Positions 5,098 to 12,300 of a DNA stretch of 64,000 bases are shown here, one piece after another; within the stretch, counting starts at the first letter, position 1; the number at the start of each line of letters is the position of its first letter. The DNA comes from Rhodoblastus sphagnicola (GTDB taxonomy: Bacteria > Pseudomonadota > Alphaproteobacteria > Rhizobiales > Beijerinckiaceae). The translations under genes were made by a program, and so were the position numbers. The notes below the pieces were generated by a model. The model was given only the letters and a program-made list of their open reading frames with translations, was not told where the DNA came from and did not search any database. The DNA is taken from positions 1 through 64,000 of the forward strand of contig NZ_NHSJ01000057.1 in the NCBI RefSeq assembly GCF_002937075.1. The letters are read 5' to 3'.

Positions 5098-6267
5098 TCA
5101 CACGCTCCCGGGCATCAAGAGTTTATCTGGAAGAATCCGAGCGAAGAACTGACGCACCATCCATACTTCGTACTGTAGCTCATGGGTAAGATGGGGGTCT
5201 GGAGGCGTTGTGCCAAAATAATACTGCCTATTTAAATCTCTGTAAAAGTCAAAACCAAAAATAGTAACTGTTTTATTTAGTATCAGCGATATTAATAACA
5301 TAGAAAGAAGTCCGGTGGTTGCGTACTGATAACCAAGATACTTAAGGCACTTGCGTGCGGCTGCTGGCATCAGGCAGATGTTTGAAGGAGGTTCACCGCA
5401 GAATTCTGGAAATACCGTCGATACTGTTCTCCCGGCGTCCAGAGCTAGTCCCGGAACGCTGCTGTTGTACTGAGACATTTTTTTCAAAAGACTGTCTTGG
5501 TTAATTGCGCCGTGCATGTATTGCTCAACGAATAGGACGAGCGAAGTATTTGACCCAACGTCATCGCTGTAGCCTTTTATCGCCGGCCAATTAATTCTGA
5601 CAACCACATCGTGGCTGTCAATTGCTTTACCGAGACCACTGCCCTTGAGCACGGAGCCATTTCCCACGAGAGCGACTGAATTTGCTTCGTCAAATATTTT
5701 CAAAGTCTGTCTAAAGGTCGTCCTGTTCTGTTCGCGCCGCAGTTGATAGCTGTCGTCATACCCACCGGCAGGCTCGACATATTCAGAAGCATCGCTGAAT
5801 GCTGCTCGTGCCGCAGTTTGCAAATCTCGACCCAGGTCAATTCTGGACGTTTCCGAATCGGCTGCGATCCTCAGAGCAAATTGCATCTTCTTGAAGGCTA
5901 ATGAGTTAGAAAGCAACGGCGACGCGGTCAAATCCATTGCATCAGCAACGCGCCCTTGAAGCAAAGCCAAACGGATTGCGCGCGCTTGAGCATCTTCGGA
6001 AAATGGTGCTGCGCTTCGGTGACGCGAATTACAGTCCGACGCGATTTTAAAATTACCTTGCCGAAGGTAGTGCAGCGAAAGAAAACGCCAATAATCTGGA
6101 CTAGAAACGTTAGCCGCAGCTAGTGACGAGCCTAGGGCATTAAAAGCGTCCACTTTAGTCGCGCGCAGGTGCAACAACTTATCGAAAACATCGACGTTTT
6201 CCTCGACAATCTCGCTAATGGTTCCCTTCAACGAATTGGCAGCGTCGCCCGCGTAAGGACTTGTCAA
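5098..6267 (-). CDS. GT29 (sialyltransferase-like) glycosyltransferase
   Basis: 389 residues. The N-terminal ~185 residues are a helical region without recognised motifs. The catalytic part shows GT29 sialylmotifs: an L-motif-like SVALVGNGSVLKGSGLGKAI followed by DSHDVVVRIN (about 197-225), an S-motif-like ATTGLLSMLLISLILN followed by VTIFGFDFY, and H-x4-E near the end (HELQYEVW) resembling motif VS. GT29 enzymes use CMP-activated ulosonic acids. The gene overlaps the CMP-sugar synthetase gene by 4 bases, which supports that donor. Donor and acceptor identities are inferred. No signal peptide is evident, so the reaction is probably cytoplasmic. Confidence 0.75.
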   Translation of the reverse strand: MTSPYAGDAANSLKGTISEIVEENVDVFDKLLHLRATKVDAFNALGSSLAAANVSSPDYWRFLSLHYLRQGNFKIASDCNSRHRSAAPFSEDAQARAIRLALLQGRVADAMDLTASPLLSNSLAFKKMQFALRIAADSETSRIDLGRDLQTAARAAFSDASEYVEPAGGYDDSYQLRREQNRTTFRQTLKIFDEANSVALVGNGSVLKGSGLGKAIDSHDVVVRINWPAIKGYSDDVGSNTSLVLFVEQYMHGAINQDSLLKKMSQYNSSVPGLALDAGRTVSTVFPEFCGEPPSNICLMPAAARKCLKYLGYQYATTGLLSMLLISLILNKTVTIFGFDFYRDLNRQYYFGTTPPDPHLTHELQYEVWMVRQFFARILPDKLLMPGSV

Positions 6268-7016
6268 TGCACCGACTCCAATTTCTTCAGAATGGTTCGC
6301 ACCCGTCCCGCATCCTCCGGCGTGTCGACCGCAATTGAATCCGCTGACAGCGGCGCCATTCGCACATCGTAGCCGAGTTCGAGAAAGCGCAAGATTTCAA
6401 TGTCCTCGATGACCTCAAGCGGCGTCTTCGCTGGCGCGCCAGCGAAGGCGCGCAAGGCGTCTGGGGGAAAGGCATAGATGCAAATTTGCCGCCACGCCCT
6501 GACGAATGCAAGGGTCTTGTTGGTGGGGACGGAGCCGCGCGACATATAGAGCAGGCGACCATCCGGACGCATCACGACCTTTGGAATCGTTGGACTGCGG
6601 AATTGGTCTTCGGACTCGATCGGCGCGACGCCGTTCAGCACCTCTCCGGGGTGGGCGGCGGCGACATCGAGCATCACGCCGATGTCGCCGGGATTGAACA
6701 AGGGTTCGTCGCCCTGGACGTTGATGTAAAGATCGGCCTCGACCGTCCGCGCGACTTCCGCTACCCGGTCGGTGCCGGTCAGGCAGTGCGGAGAGGTCAT
6801 CAGCACATTTATGCCGAGCGCCTGACAGTGCGACAATACTCTGTCGTCGTCGGTGGCGACGTGGATCAACTCCTTGGGAAAGCCCAACGCGCAGCGCTCG
6901 AACGTTCGCTGGATCATGCTCTTGCCGCACAAATCGATCAGAGGTTTGCCGGGGAGGCGGCTAGATTGATAGCGCGCGGGGATGACGATGATGGAACGCA
7001 AAACGGGGCCCTTCAC
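6264..7016 (-). CDS. KdsB-like CMP-ulosonate (CMP-Kdo-type) cytidylyltransferase
   Basis: 250 residues, the usual KdsB length. Motifs are IVIPARYQSSRLPGKPL (CTP-binding loop), VATDDDRV, LTGTDRVAEVAR and DLYINVQGDEPLFNP, which characterise 3-deoxy-manno-octulosonate cytidylyltransferases and relatives. It would couple a 3-deoxy-2-ulosonic acid to CMP. Because it sits between an aldolase and a GT29-like transferase with 4-base overlaps on both sides, I infer it activates the locus-specific acid rather than serving lipid A core synthesis; the housekeeping kdsB should be elsewhere. Exact substrate (Kdo, another C8 or a C9 acid) cannot be read from sequence. Confidence 0.85.
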   Translation of the reverse strand: MKGPVLRSIIVIPARYQSSRLPGKPLIDLCGKSMIQRTFERCALGFPKELIHVATDDDRVLSHCQALGINVLMTSPHCLTGTDRVAEVARTVEADLYINVQGDEPLFNPGDIGVMLDVAAAHPGEVLNGVAPIESEDQFRSPTIPKVVMRPDGRLLYMSRGSVPTNKTLAFVRAWRQICIYAFPPDALRAFAGAPAKTPLEVIEDIEILRFLELGYDVRMAPLSADSIAVDTPEDAGRVRTILKKLESVH

Positions 7017-8626
7017 AGATCGGGGGAGTACACCGACGTCTGCGGCACATGGTAGCGCGACGGCGTGATCGCGACCAGTGGCCGCGCTTTGGCGGATTGG
7101 CCATAGACATCAAAAATGGCGTCCATTTCGTGGCTGCGTGGATCGTCGCCGAAATAACCATCGAAGCCGGCCAGGAGAATACGTCGTGCTCCGGCCGCAG
7201 TTGCGATGGCGAGTGCGTAAGCCGCGACGAGCGGCGCGGGCGCGACGGCATAATCAGACTCCGCCTCGAACGCGCCGGGTTCCACGGTCAAGCCGTAATC
7301 GAGCATTTTCACATCCGCGAAGCTCCCGCGAACGGAGGCGTCGAGACGCGCGACAGGCACGAAAACCGGAACCGGGCTTTCCCGGTAATGCGCTGCATCC
7401 ATCAACAGTCGCACCGGATGGCAGGCAGCGCGCGCGGTCAGCAATTCGTCGGGAAGGACCTTGGTCAGGTTGAGACCGATAACGACAGGATTTGCTCGCC
7501 TCACAAAGGCAGCGACGCCATCTTTGTGGCGCTCGGCCTCAGGACTGCCTGAGACCAACAGAACATCCCGGCCCTGAGCCCAGTTCGTAATGTTGAAGCC
7601 GCCCCGGCTCTCGCCTGTGAAAAGGTTGCGCGAAGCGTCCAGGAAGGACCGCCGGTAACTGTCCCTGCCGTTCGTCCTGAGAAATTCAATTGCGCCAAGA
7701 ATTTCTTCTTGTCCATAGCGAGGATCGCTCATCATTTCCTGAATATAAGTCGGATGAATGCCGTAGCTCCCCGACAGATAATAATAAGGGTTCGGCCCCC
7801 AGCCAAACTCACGTTGCATCGGGACAAAATGCTTGTTCAGGAGGTTGAGCAGCGGCGTGATATTATACTTGCCGATTCCGAGCCGGTTCATCTCGATCAG
7901 CATATATTCAGTGCGCACATTGCCGGGTCCGCGTCCCATGCCGAGCACGGTCGCGTCGATCCAGGTCGCGCCACAACGAATGGCTTCAACACTGTTCGCC
8001 AGGGCCCGGCCCATGTTGTCGTGCGTGTGGATGCCGATCGGGCCGCTCCAATGCGCCTTCAGACTCGCTATGATGTTGCTTACATCCGACGGATCGAGTC
8101 CGCCAAGACTGTCGGCGAAGTACAGGGCCTCGATCGGCAGGTCGCTGGCGACGCGTGACAGTTCAACGATTTCTTCGGGCGTACGCTCTCCAATCTGCAT
8201 CAGATTGAGACCAATCAGGTAGCCAAGTTCGGCCAAGGCGTGAATCGCAGGCTCAAGCTTCACAATCTCCCGGAAATGTGCGGCAATGCGTACCAGTTGC
8301 ACGGGCGAATCGGCGCGCTGTCGAAACAGTTTGTGAACGGCGGCGGCGGGCCCTTCGGGGTAATTTGTCAGGTCGGCGGCATTGACCATCACGGCGACGC
8401 CGAGGCGTTTCGGAATGTCGAAACTGCGGATGTAATCGTCCGTCGTGAAGGCGCAGGGTCCCATGAATTTGTCGCCGGCGAAGAACCGGAAGCCAAGCTC
8501 GACATAATCGACGCCGGTCTCTGCCATCACTGAAATGTAATTTTGCACGAGAGTCCGTTCAAATGCCCATTGGTTGTAGTAACCTCCGTCACGAAACGTG
8601 CAGTCGATAATCGTATGAATGGTCAT
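7013..8626 (-). CDS. DRE-TIM (HMGL-like) aldolase fused to a C-terminal DUF115/sialyltransferase-like domain
   Basis: 537 residues, two domains. Residues 1-310 form a DRE-TIM metallolyase barrel: TIIDCTFRDGGYYNQW (catalytic Arg-Asp), VDYVELGFR, ALYFADSLGGLDP and the metal-binding GIHTHDNMGRALANS. This is the 4-hydroxy-2-oxovalerate/HMG-CoA-lyase-like superfamily, which joins or splits pyruvate and an aldehyde. Residues ~325-537 contain GRDVLLVSGSPEA, VVIGLNLTKVLPDE and GARRILLAGFDGYFGDDPRS, like a Rossmann-type MptE/DUF115 or GT42-like fold. With a HAD phosphatase and CMP-synthetase alongside, I infer synthesis of a 3-deoxy-2-ulosonic acid from pyruvate and a sugar aldehyde. It overlaps the HAD gene by 1 base; GGGAGAGG precedes its start. 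Confidence 0.75.
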   Translation of the reverse strand: MTIHTIIDCTFRDGGYYNQWAFERTLVQNYISVMAETGVDYVELGFRFFAGDKFMGPCAFTTDDYIRSFDIPKRLGVAVMVNAADLTNYPEGPAAAVHKLFRQRADSPVQLVRIAAHFREIVKLEPAIHALAELGYLIGLNLMQIGERTPEEIVELSRVASDLPIEALYFADSLGGLDPSDVSNIIASLKAHWSGPIGIHTHDNMGRALANSVEAIRCGATWIDATVLGMGRGPGNVRTEYMLIEMNRLGIGKYNITPLLNLLNKHFVPMQREFGWGPNPYYYLSGSYGIHPTYIQEMMSDPRYGQEEILGAIEFLRTNGRDSYRRSFLDASRNLFTGESRGGFNITNWAQGRDVLLVSGSPEAERHKDGVAAFVRRANPVVIGLNLTKVLPDELLTARAACHPVRLLMDAAHYRESPVPVFVPVARLDASVRGSFADVKMLDYGLTVEPGAFEAESDYAVAPAPLVAAYALAIATAAGARRILLAGFDGYFGDDPRSHEMDAIFDVYGQSAKARPLVAITPSRYHVPQTSVYSPDL

Positions 8627-9333
8627 TACCCTCTCCCGCGCAATGGAATTAGATCGCCGACATTTTCGATAACCTGAAAACCCTGCGCTTCGGCAAGTTC
8701 GAGCATTTTGGACTTCACGGTCGAAAACGGCGCCATGAACACGAAATCGCAGCCTGTCGCTTTGGCCGCTTCCATATCCGCGACGGCGTCGCCGACAAAC
8801 AGGAACCCGCCCTCAGCCTCCCACCCGGCTTCAAGACAGGATTGCTTGACGCGCCCGATGTTCTCGATCTTTGAACCCGGTGAGCCGAAGATGGACTCAA
8901 AATAGGAGCTCAGGTCGCGTTGCTGAAAAACCGTACGCAACTCGGTCTCGTCACTGCCAGAGACAATGAAGAGCCTCGCCCTTTTGACCAGCGCGGACAA
9001 GGCTCCCCTCAGCCCCGGCGTTTCCTCGACCGACAGATATCCGGAAGCGCACATTTTGCCGAAATCGGCCAACAGACGATGCAGATCCGTTCCGATAGGC
9101 GGGCGGCCGAAGCATCCAGCCAGCACTTCGGCGAACAACCGGTGGCGGGGCGTGCCAAAGGCCTGCGATTGCCAGAGAGACGCGGCCGCGACCACGTCCG
9201 GAGCGAAGCCATGAATTTCGAGTGTCCGGCGAAATGCGTCGATCTTCAAATTATTGGAATCGAGCAATACGCCATCACAGTCGAAGATGATGATGTCGTA
9301 GTGCGGCTCGATTTCGCCACTTAGCTCATTCAT
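8626..9333 (-). CDS. HAD-superfamily phosphatase
   Basis: 235 residues from ATG 9333, chosen over an upstream in-frame start because it gives MNELSGEIEPHYDIIIFDCD with the usual spacing before motif I. HAD motifs are FDCDGVLLDSN (nucleophile and acid Asp), FIVSGSDETELR (motif II Ser), GSKIENIGRVK (Lys) and FLFVGDAVADMEAAKATG (acidic motif). It resembles phosphoglycolate phosphatase-type enzymes with an alpha cap. It overlaps the big glycosyltransferase gene by 8 bases and the aldolase gene by 1. I infer it dephosphorylates either the aldehyde precursor or the ulosonate-phosphate, the role KdsC or NanP plays in known pathways. Confidence 0.8.
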   Translation of the reverse strand: MNELSGEIEPHYDIIIFDCDGVLLDSNNLKIDAFRRTLEIHGFAPDVVAAASLWQSQAFGTPRHRLFAEVLAGCFGRPPIGTDLHRLLADFGKMCASGYLSVEETPGLRGALSALVKRARLFIVSGSDETELRTVFQQRDLSSYFESIFGSPGSKIENIGRVKQSCLEAGWEAEGGFLFVGDAVADMEAAKATGCDFVFMAPFSTVKSKMLELAEAQGFQVIENVGDLIPLRGRG

Positions 9334-12300
9334 CAGCTTGAATACCCTGCTCGGCATGGGCAGTGCTTCGAAATGTAGTTACATACAAGTCGCCCAACGC
9401 ATTGACGCTGAACCGTTCGGAAGCGGCCAGCGCCCCCCGTATGAAAGTTTCGTAAGCGACCGCCGAAGAAAACATCTGCTGGATCGCTTCGACGAAAGCC
9501 TTGGCCAAGAGATCGCGATTGCCGAGGCGGTCAATGACAATGCCACCGGCTTCCGACTCCTTCTCCTGCACCATGCGCGGGATTTCCCCGATATCGGTGG
9601 CGGCGACCGGCAGTCCCGTCTGAAAACATTCGAGCAGAAACAGCGGGAAAGTCTCCCCCTCGAAGATCGAAGGAAACAAACCCATGTCAAAGCAGGGAAA
9701 ATAGCGGATCGGACGGTCGATCTGGCCCAGGAAGGTGACGAACGGCGCCTCTTCATATTCCGCTTTGAGTTCGGCGGCGATTGGCCCGTCGCCAATCAGC
9801 ACGAGATGGGTGGGACGATCCACGCATTTGCCGAGACCCTCCACGATTTCGATGGCGGTCCGCCATCCCTTGCTTTCAATGGCGCGAGAGCAGATGACGA
9901 AGACGAACGCGTCCTCCGCAATGGCATGCTGCGCGCGAAACGCTTTTCGGTCCACCCATTCCCCGTCGAAAGGCGCAACGGCGTTGAAGCTGTAAACCAA
10001 CTTGACCGGATCGCGCAGGGCCTGCGGAAGGAAATTCAGATTTTTCTCCGACAGATACAGCCATTTGCTGACCGTACGGCCGAGGAACGCGAGGAAGTCC
10101 TCGCTCATCAAGTCCTGAACGGTTTCGAACCCCCCATGCAGCGACGCGAGGTAGGGAATTTTCAAATCGACATGGCGGCAGTACAGACGGAAGTCGAGGC
10201 TCACATTGTGCGAGTTGATCAACTGTATGCCGTGCGCCGAGATGAACCCGTTGAAATCGTCGCAAACGTCATCCCAATAGACGACGGGGATGTCGGCGCG
10301 GAGGCGGCGGCGCACGGAATTGCCGCGCTCGTCCGCTGGACGCTCAACGACCAGATAGGTGACATGTAACCCGCGGGCCTTGAGCGCATTGGCGAGATCG
10401 ATGGGCAGAATTTCGCCTCCGCCGACCGTAAAGCCATTGGCGCCGATACAAACGCGCAGCGGCGACTTCGCCGCTTCGCGAGCACGCTCGAGAAATCCCT
10501 GACGCACGTCCTCGGCATCGCGCTCCGGAAGATATTGCGCGAGCATATCAGAATGCGCCGCAACCGCAGCGTCATCAATGGCGTAAAGCGACCGGAGATC
10601 ATCGACGACCATCATATGTTCCGCAAGATGACGATCGGTAAAGAACGAACTGCGGGAAGCGCTGGACGGATTGACCCGGAAGAATGAGCGAGCGCGTCGT
10701 GAATAGGCGATGGCGCCGCCGCGCACGACGAGCGCGTAAAAATACCAATCGCCGGCGAAGCGATATTGCAGGAGACGCTCCTGTTCCTCTTCAGTCAGCG
10801 ACGGCTTACGGAAAACGAGGCCGGAGGCATTAGGAATGACGTTGCGGATCGCGAAATCATGCGAAAACGCCTTGAACGCGGGGACCACGCAGGAGACGCC
10901 CCAGGAGAAATTCTCCATGGCGTCGAAATAGCCGTCGAGATCTTTGCGCGGCGCGCCGTCAGGATCAATGCAGGTTATGCGCCCGAAAGCCGCCATGACG
11001 TCGTCGCGCGCGAAGGCGGGCAGAATATTACTGAGGAAACGACGATCGGCGGAATCGTCGGTCTCCGCCACCCAGATCAAATCATATTTTGCAAGGGATA
11101 GACCCTTAAGCCATTGGCGGAAAACGCCTCCGGAGTTTTTCTCGTTAACCACGATCTGATGCGGAATCGGTGAACGTCCCAGTATCTTTCGGGCCACCTC
11201 GACCGAATCGTCGGAAGAGCAATCGTCGAGAAAAATGATTTCGTCGGGCTGAAGGGTCTGGTCGAGCACAGAACCTAAACGTTCGGGCAGAAACCTGGAG
11301 TGATTATAATTTGGGAAGATCACGCTGACGCGAGGGCGCGCGCCAAAACCGACCTCCTCCTGCGGCGCGCGTCGGGCGCGCGCGTTGACCGCCGAAACAT
11401 AAGCCCGAGCCGTGGCGTTGAGGAAAGCCGCGCCGTAATGGACGTCGGGTTCGAGATAGGCGCTCTCCGCCCATTCATTCCAGGCGTTGATGGCGACGAT
11501 CGGCGTCCCGTGAATCGGCGTATCGATGGCGCGGTTGACCAACTCCGTCAACCACTTTTCGTATTTCTTCGGAGCGATGCCTTCGAGCGTCAGTCCCCGA
11601 TTTGGGCGACGACAATCATTGTCCCAACTGGGTACGATGGTTTTGATCAGCGGATAGTCTTCAGGTTCGTCTTCTTCCAGCGAAGCCTTGGCGAAATCAT
11701 CGTAAGCAATAACGCGGCCCGCGAATTCTGCTGAATAGGCGTCGGGCGTCGGACGACCCGGCAAATGATTCGACAGTTTGTGCGGCGGGAATTCCAGGGC
11801 GCCGTCGAGCCCATGGATGCTCGGGTCCGTTTCGCCAAAGGTTTGCGCCATGAATAACAGCGGTTCGACGTCGAGGCGCGCTGTAAGCTTTTCCCGCCAG
11901 CGCTTGATGGTGACGGCGCTGTCGGGAACGTTCTTGGGGTTGTAGATCACCAGCAGCGGCCGATTATTCAGTCGAATATAACGATGATCGCGCAGGTGGC
12001 GCGCAAAATCGTCGATCAAGGCGTCTTCGTCTTCGGCCCTATAGTTCTGTCCAAGCAAAACTTGCGATTCGGACCCATCCCAGGTCCGTGTCCAGTTTTC
12101 GTTAGCCCAGATCAACATGAACGGCATATCTACGTCGGACTGAAGAAGAAGCTCCAACGGACGCTCAAGCACGCGTTTTCGATTGAACCAGTAATAGTAA
12201 TAGGCAAAGCCGCTCACGCCTCCGGCCTTGGCCATTGCGACCTGTTTACGCAGATCCTCGACATTTTCTAGGTTATAAAAGCCGAGATCGCGCGGGATGC

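Follow-up and report, generated by a model that had tools for sequence, protein, structure and literature searches.

A recurrent aldolase and cytidylyltransferase gene cassette as a candidate route to 3-deoxy-2-ulosonic acids in bacteria and viral contigs

Results

Gene arrangement in Rhodoblastus sphagnicola

The analysed window comprised 64,000 nucleotides of Rhodoblastus sphagnicola (contig NZ_NHSJ01000057.1). It opened at contig base 1, with anything to the left of this base beyond view. Four genes on its minus strand (5098..9357) were studied as a candidate pathway for an acidic sugar activated with cytidine monophosphate (CMP). In the order of transcription, they encoded a HAD-IA phosphatase, a two-domain DRE-TIM aldolase, a KdsB-like cytidylyltransferase and a protein of glycosyltransferase family 29 (GT29) (Table 1). 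A prediction made earlier from the sequence of the window had described four overlapping genes, and the overlaps were confirmed with 1, 4 and 4 bases. They lay at the junctions TAATG (HAD/aldolase), GTGA (aldolase/KdsB) and TTGA (KdsB/GT29), which have the sequence pattern of translational coupling. The HAD protein carried the motifs of its family: DCDG was conserved in all 81 members, a GDxxxD-type motif in 80 of them.

Table 1. Features of the cassette locus and its upstream neighbour in the window.
Feature	Coordinates	Strand	Match or proposed role
HAD-IA phosphatase, 243 amino acids	8626..9357 (alternative start 9333)	minus	HAD_2 4e-13; proposed role: dephosphorylation of aldol product
Aldolase gene, 537 residues	7013..8626	minus	HMGL-like PF00682 4e-27, residues 6-251
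Aldolase DRE-TIM domain, about residues 1-320	7667..8626	minus	Proposed pyruvate-dependent 3-deoxy-2-ulosonate(-phosphate) synthase
Aldolase C-terminal Maf/MptE-like (DUF115) Rossmann-type domain, residues 340-537	7013..7609	minus	Profile comparison
KdsB-like CMP-ulosonate synthetase (putative), cassette type	6264..7016	minus	CTP_transf_3 1e-35; NF009905/PRK13368 281.3 bits, cut-off 255
GT29 (sialyltransferase-family) protein	5098..6267	minus	Glyco_transf_29 PF00777 6.5e-22, 78.6 bits vs cut-off 23, residues 196-248
WbsX + GT2 + GT4 multi-domain glycosyltransferase, 1640 residues	9326..14248	minus	Directly upstream of HAD; context, not core

Recurrence of a three-gene core

Genome contigs were scanned by aldolase patterns alone, and the best 80 of 344 aldolase relatives were taken as the cellular set (loci numbered with L). 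A cytidylyltransferase gene was located on the same strand within 6 kb of the aldolase in 79 of the 80 loci, and at a distance of 60 nucleotides or less in 69. Within the same range and orientation, a HAD gene of the cassette family was present in 74 loci, and both partners together in 73. This recurrence of aldolase, synthetase and HAD was far above chance. The constant core comprised these three genes, without GT29. Co-occurrence of all four genes had been proposed as a check, which held for the aldolase with its synthetase and with HAD but revealed GT29 in few loci. Only the three-gene core was common to most loci, and no amino-sugar enzyme was shared.

Carrier phyla included Pseudomonadota, Bacillota, Actinomycetota, Cyanobacteriota and Campylobacterota. 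Three Leisingera plasmids held the cassette among annotated polysaccharide and ATP-binding cassette (ABC) export genes. Near the lineage of the window the cassette was rare. At E <= 1e-30, it was found in 3 of 60 relatives, counting the own genome and one single-domain form, and in 2 of 398 genomes of the phylum, again including the own genome. Escherichia coli genomes showed no match to a Psychrobacter cassette in a comparison at the DNA level, which is a weak test.

Two further gene types were observed near some cassettes. A gene for an HpcH/HpaI-type pyruvate aldolase followed shortly after the aldolase in nine loci, among them L053:9599-10360 and L083:11449-12234, and was named by Pfam in two of the nine; this enzyme might supply or consume the aldehyde. 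Kdo/WaaP-family kinase genes, named after 3-deoxy-D-manno-octulosonic acid (Kdo), were located near the cassette in some Marinobacter (L104:5135-5875, L096:10877-11605), where it may serve the lipopolysaccharide core.

The aldolase and its C-terminal domain

The closest solved relative of the aldolase by sequence was 3dxi, a putative aldolase, followed by 4-hydroxy-2-oxovalerate aldolases. All 62 aligned members shared residues R12, D13, Y16, H200 and H202. R12, D13, H200 and H202 aligned with the RD...HxH motifs of 4lrs/4jn6, which we take to be the metal and pyruvate (enolate) motifs of 4-hydroxy-2-oxovalerate aldolases. The best-scoring families were likewise 4-hydroxy-2-oxovalerate aldolases, producers of 4-hydroxy-2-oxo acids. 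By the chemistry expected of this family, a pyruvate enolate and an aldehyde would give a 4-hydroxy-2-oxo acid with a 3-deoxy-2-ulosonate skeleton.

The assignment to the DRE-TIM metallolyases in the original prediction agreed with the HMGL-like match, but the C-terminal domain had been overlooked. By sequence comparison, this domain is Maf/MptE-like. Against three Maf domains, hhalign returned a probability of 89.9 and an E value of 1.7e-6 over 145 columns; the controls gave 0.3 with a GT29 profile and 0.15 with a KdsB profile. A direct match of the domain to GT29 accordingly had no support in hhalign. PF01973 scored 14.8 bits on the domain of the window, below its cut-off of 34.6, and matched 21 of 54 aldolase members weakly (E up to 1, best 6e-6). 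DUF498, another weak family, was matched by 23 of 54 members with a best E value of 0.012. Against the viral-type DUF115 set the probability was only 20.8 (E 0.0011), and the idea that viral Maf-like proteins are a free-standing form of the domain was weakly supported. Maf proteins glycosylate flagellin, using CMP-activated nonulosonates as donors. Perhaps the C-terminal domain binds CMP or a nucleotide sugar, or transfers the CMP-acid.

A separate clade of KdsB-like synthetases

In a tree of KdsB sequences, 50 of the 51 cassette proteins formed one clade with support of 99/97 that spanned four phyla. The exception, L083, grouped with 12 of the 13 KdsB proteins encoded elsewhere in carrier genomes. 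L116 was left out of the tree, since it and L083 represent one gene, and is still counted among the 14 non-cassette rows below. The long-branched KdsB of L121 (Bacillus sp. PS06) branched next to the cassette group but not within it, on the cassette side of the midpoint root; the tree program warns that long rows such as this one are placed unsurely. In the same genome (G451:C29), this KdsB-like gene is adjacent to a KdsA gene, which is unusual for a Gram-positive bacterium.

Cassette proteins shared a fingerprint on the sugar side, where RQxCxYxF and IEILR replace RHxGxYxY and LEQLR. At position 177 of the window protein, Q was present in 50 of 51 cassette rows and H in 12 of 14 non-cassette rows. 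The corresponding counts were 49 of 51 for C and 13 of 14 for G at position 179, 51 of 51 for F and 12 of 14 for Y at position 183, and 50 of 51 for I and 12 of 14 for Q at position 208. The replaced His and Gln presumably contact Kdo directly. The CTP (cytidine triphosphate) loop PARxxSxRxPGKPL and the two metal aspartates were kept, with QGDE in 50 and VDxP in 49 of 51 cassette rows. The roles of these CTP and Mg residues were carried over by motif from CMP-Kdo synthetase as given in PMC3149649. That paper also describes the C-terminal half of the enzyme as the Kdo-binding half, and the four changed positions fall within it.

The window KdsB reached 139.1 bits on the KdsB equivalog TIGR00466, under the cut-off of 155.2, and passed the NCBI subfamily NF009905, which is named CMP-Kdo synthetase (Table 1). 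For cassette proteins, this name is probably wrong in substrate. A second KdsB of the genome was encoded on contig C65; it was 35% identical to the window protein and scored 198.1 on TIGR00466. The single KdsA-family match (PF00793) and the single NeuB match (PF03102) of the genome also lay on other contigs, and neither family had a match inside the window. The KdsA-family gene, on contig C123, was 54% identical to a gene passing the KdsA cut-off in another genome. Around the NeuB-family gene on contig C121, no cytidylyltransferase was detected within 18 kb with three queries. Because the genome's own KdsA and KdsB sit on other contigs, the window KdsB is not the housekeeping copy. The separate clade and the changed sugar side agree with this. 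A housekeeping KdsB at the locus, which would have spoken against the prediction, was thus looked for and not found.

A second type of synthetase replaced KdsB in many loci. The nearest cytidylyltransferase was of the KdsB type in 47 of 80 loci, as predicted, but of the NeuA/PseF type in 32. The aldolase tree, built from 84 rows (three near-copies of 87 were dropped) by a quick method without bootstrap, contained 20 switches of synthetase type, and well-supported branches made at least 14 of these unavoidable. L025, the closest aldolase relative among the 80 loci (72% identical to that of the window), had a NeuA/PseF-type synthetase. Given this repeated swapping, the simplest reading is that both types activate the product of the aldolase.

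The synthetase could instead act on an acid that is not a 2-ulosonic acid, for example, a phosphonate or another acid derived from the aldol product. We regard this as very improbable. Phosphonate activation is presumed here to involve CMP and members of this superfamily. KdsB and PseF, the named families nearest to the synthetase, are both ulosonate enzymes, and pyruvate aldolase chemistry would give the ulosonate skeleton directly. In favour of the phosphonate option, bacterial nucleotidyltransferases also activate phosphonates according to PMC6697681.

Search for KdsA and NeuB in carriers

A tblastn search of the 80 loci with three queries gave no match to KdsA or NeuB at E <= 0.01, although a very divergent NeuB could escape it. 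The prediction that neither is present at the locus thus held. A dedicated neuB or kdsA gene next to it, which would have spoken against a new pathway, was looked for and not found to the right of contig base 1. Genome-wide profile searches for both families were made in 16 carrier genomes, chosen by hand with Gram-positives favoured. KdsA was above its cut-off in nine of them and a clear NeuB was present in four (L038, L044, L083 and L093). Neither was found by profile in Metabacillus litoralis SW-211 (L030), Rossellomorea aquimaris (L031) and two metagenome-assembled genomes (L027 and L084). In L030, L031 and L027, the sole NeuB-family match coincided with a KdsA-family match below the cut-off and is read as 3-deoxy-D-arabino-heptulosonate 7-phosphate synthase. 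The single KdsB-family gene of the Gram-positive isolates L030 and L031 at E <= 1e-20 was the cassette copy. In these two isolates, where KdsB is alone and neither KdsA nor NeuB was found, no source of a substrate for the synthetase is visible other than the aldolase.

These results bear on the possibility that the cassette makes Kdo itself. Pyruvate and D-arabinose, or its 5-phosphate, would then be joined to Kdo or Kdo-8-phosphate, with the HAD protein acting as KdsC before activation by KdsB. This route would fit the KdsB homology, the NCBI family name and the presence of the cassette in genomes where KdsA was not found; Kdo is also known to undergo aldol cleavage into pyruvate and arabinose. 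We nevertheless consider it unlikely. The KdsB changes sit in the sugar-binding half, KdsA is already present in 9 of the 16 chosen carriers, and most non-cassette KdsB proteins of carrier genomes group apart. An alternative synthetase of the NeuA/PseF type would also be odd for Kdo. The acid of the cassette is probably not Kdo.

Aldolase and synthetase fused in viral contigs

Twenty-eight loci (L138-L165) encoding an aldolase relative were detected when viral contigs were scanned. In all 28, the aldolase was followed by a KdsB domain matching the cassette KdsB profile within one open reading frame, for example, L144:4986-6698 and L150:4998-6695. The cassette marks Q-x-C-x-Y-x-F and EDIEIxR were present in 27 fusions; the remaining one, L147, was cut by the contig end. 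The 28 fusions represented 20 distinct proteins and 14 clusters at 90%.

A small HAD-like gene was located within about 5 kb of the fusion in 21 of 28 loci, with no Pfam match in the three tested. Over the same distance, a DUF115/MptE-like gene was present in 14 loci, GT29 in five and either one in 19. These neighbour counts came from profiles built on the hits themselves; four neighbours were confirmed by Pfam, one of them below the cut-off. In L144, the gene order was GT29, small HAD-like protein and aldolase-KdsB, and the functions predicted from these sequences resemble the four of the window. Among the 22 whole viral records searched of the 28, GT29 was present in seven and a terminase match in four. 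With so few terminase matches, the viral nature of these contigs rests mainly on IMG/VR, and no record was rated 90% complete. Three window proteins had no match in PHROGs.

The genes of the cassette belong together. Their synthetase branches as a clade of its own, is altered on the sugar side and is fused to the aldolase in viral contigs. A chance neighbourhood of a catabolic aldolase and a housekeeping KdsB is contradicted by the separate KdsA and KdsB on other contigs, by the synthetase in 79 of 80 loci and by the viral fusion. Nothing was found in its favour and we give it practically no credence.

The aldolase could also work in breakdown or recycling, releasing pyruvate from a 2-oxo acid, with the activated acid coming from elsewhere. 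Its best-scoring families, the 4-hydroxy-2-oxovalerate aldolases, are mostly catabolic, and one distant relative lay about 5 kb from ring-cleavage genes. This explanation is improbable, since it is opposed by the fusion with the synthetase, by the lack of a KdsA or NeuB match in the 80 loci and anywhere in the two sequenced isolates, and by the polysaccharide genes that surround the aldolase wherever neighbours were named.

GT29 and the glycan neighbourhood

All eight PDB sequence matches of the window GT29 were sialyltransferases. Its N-terminal half (residues 1-195) had no family match. In L069, the GT29 gene overlapped the aldolase start and was confirmed by Pfam. Maf-like genes were found in four of the 81 cellular loci, with weak matches in two. 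GT29 and Maf-type transferases use CMP-ulosonate donors. Transfer of the CMP-acid by GT29 is plausible from sequence, and its recurrence beside the viral fusion supports this role rather than showing it.

Directly upstream of the HAD gene, a large WbsX/GT2/GT4 protein was encoded (Table 1), which probably assembles the glycan acceptor of the acid. Its N-terminal modules seemed repeated when judged by eye, and parts of it were matched by tblastn in 14 other loci. The HAD start at 9333 is the second Met of the open reading frame that opens at 9357, and both starts overlap the end of this upstream gene. Beyond GT29 followed a GDSL hydrolase, one gene without family match and then a GT61 gene on the plus strand. 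As judged from these annotations, the neighbourhood is a glycan locus. The G+C content was 0.55 across the first 14.3 kb and 0.65 from 15 kb onward. The cassette had no match at E <= 1e-30 in 10 other genomes of the genus searched. With its low G+C content and this restricted occurrence, the block looks acquired.

Discussion

Proposed pathway

We propose that the cassette makes a 3-deoxy-2-ulosonic acid and activates it with CMP without phosphoenolpyruvate (PEP), KdsA or NeuB, and assign a probability of about three in four to this reading. The DRE-TIM aldolase would hold pyruvate as a metal-bound enolate and add it to an aldehyde, giving a 4-hydroxy-2-oxo acid that is a 3-deoxy-2-ulosonate. 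The aldehyde is probably phosphorylated and drawn from central metabolism, and the HAD phosphatase would remove the phosphate from the aldol product. A dedicated KdsB-like enzyme, in other loci a NeuA/PseF-like one, would then form the CMP-acid. Finally, a sialyltransferase-like protein, GT29 in the window and GT29 or a Maf-like protein in viral contigs, may place the acid on a surface glycan. The genetic evidence gives good support to an aldolase-based CMP-ulosonate pathway, whose substrate, product and direction are as we infer them.

Several observations weigh against this proposal. In the aldolase, Tyr16 is present in 62 of 62 members where 4-hydroxy-2-oxovalerate aldolases have a His after RDG(S), which we take to be their catalytic (acid-base) residue. 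The window aldolase also scored 96.6 bits on the 4-hydroxy-2-oxovalerate aldolase equivalog TIGR03217, with a cut-off of 286. Given the exchange of His for Tyr and this low score, the enzyme could catalyse another reaction or act in the opposite direction. The swapping of synthetases could mean that two different acids are activated. One core member was absent in 7 of the 80 loci (L034, L042, L057, L067, L082, L083 and L095), of which only L057 and L067 are short or very short contigs. None of the viral loci yielded a match to the HAD family of the cassette. Of the 16 chosen carrier genomes, 12 have KdsA or a clear NeuB at some location, and Bacillus sp. PS06 (L041) also has a separate KdsA-KdsB pair.

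The original prediction had further seen a complete set for making, dephosphorylating, activating and transferring the acid. The first three activities were conserved together in 73 of 80 loci, but GT29 was found in only 7 of 81 cellular loci (the window, L069, L091, L092, L098, L032 and L033), with weak matches on the opposite strand in L032 and L033. It was dropped as a constant member of the cassette.

Single-domain aldolase relatives also count against the proposal. L017 and L021 adjoin a HAD gene without a detected KdsB- or NeuA-type gene, and L015 and L016 had neither HAD nor cytidylyltransferase detected beside them. At L021:6881-8691 and L017:6653-9747, a DapA-like gene and short-chain dehydrogenases/reductases (identified by eye) also stand beside the single-domain aldolase and HAD. 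The aldolase-HAD pair of these two loci suggests a different pathway.

Significance

The bacterial ulosonic acids Kdo, sialic, legionaminic and pseudaminic acid are thought to come from PEP-dependent synthases, and annotation looks for those. In the open-access literature searched, no paper was found that joins a DRE-TIM aldolase to CMP-ulosonates, which is not proof of absence. The literature searches also gave no support for 3-deoxy-pentulosonic or 3-deoxy-hexulosonic acids, which occur in Klebsiella K38 and Azotobacter, as the product.

Many bacteria and some of their viruses appear to make an acidic sugar by a pyruvate-type aldolase, convert it to a CMP-linked form and add it to surface glycans. 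We lean, with less confidence than for the cassette itself, towards a third class of ulosonic acid synthase that does not depend on PEP, in which a metal-dependent pyruvate aldolase feeds a dedicated KdsB- or PseF-like synthetase. It would provide an undescribed 3-deoxy-2-ulosonic acid for Gram-negative, Gram-positive and cyanobacterial surfaces, and viral contigs would carry a one-protein form, often with a GT29 or Maf-like gene nearby. If this is true, acidic surface sugars go unpredicted across several phyla and viral contigs, and a class of sugars has perhaps been overlooked. The cassette would represent a new enzyme set making CMP-sugars from cheap substrates and would suggest a donor that can be tested with the GT29 and Maf-like proteins of bacteria and viruses.

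Comparison with known systems

The Kdo pathway (KdsD-KdsA-KdsC-KdsB, WaaA) resembles the proposed route in joining a C3 unit to a sugar aldehyde phosphate, in the HAD enzyme, in CMP activation and in the KdsB homologue. It differs in that PEP-dependent KdsA stands where the cassette has the DRE-TIM aldolase. The cassette HAD-IA protein has 243 amino acids, whereas KdsC is presumably smaller, and the cassette KdsB belongs to another clade with a changed sugar side. The sialic, legionaminic and pseudaminic acid pathways (NeuB/LegI/PseI, NeuA/LegF/PseF) share the activation of a CMP-ulosonate, and a PseF-like synthetase is nearest in 32 of 80 loci. Unlike them, the 80 cassette loci have no NeuB match and share no amino-sugar enzyme.

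The aldolase shares the HMGL-like family and the RD and HxH motifs with 4-hydroxy-2-oxovalerate aldolase (DmpG/BphI) and 3dxi. It differs from DmpG/BphI in the exchange of His for Tyr, in gene context and in an extra C-terminus, which is Maf/MptE-like in the cassette and KdsB in viral contigs. This C-terminal domain aligns over 145 columns with Maf flagellin glycosyltransferases and MptE (PF01973), but in the window it scores below the Pfam cut-off and is fused to an aldolase. The window GT29 differs from known GT29 sialyltransferases in being bacterial and in its N-terminal half without family match, and shares with them the sialylmotif L region and PF00777.

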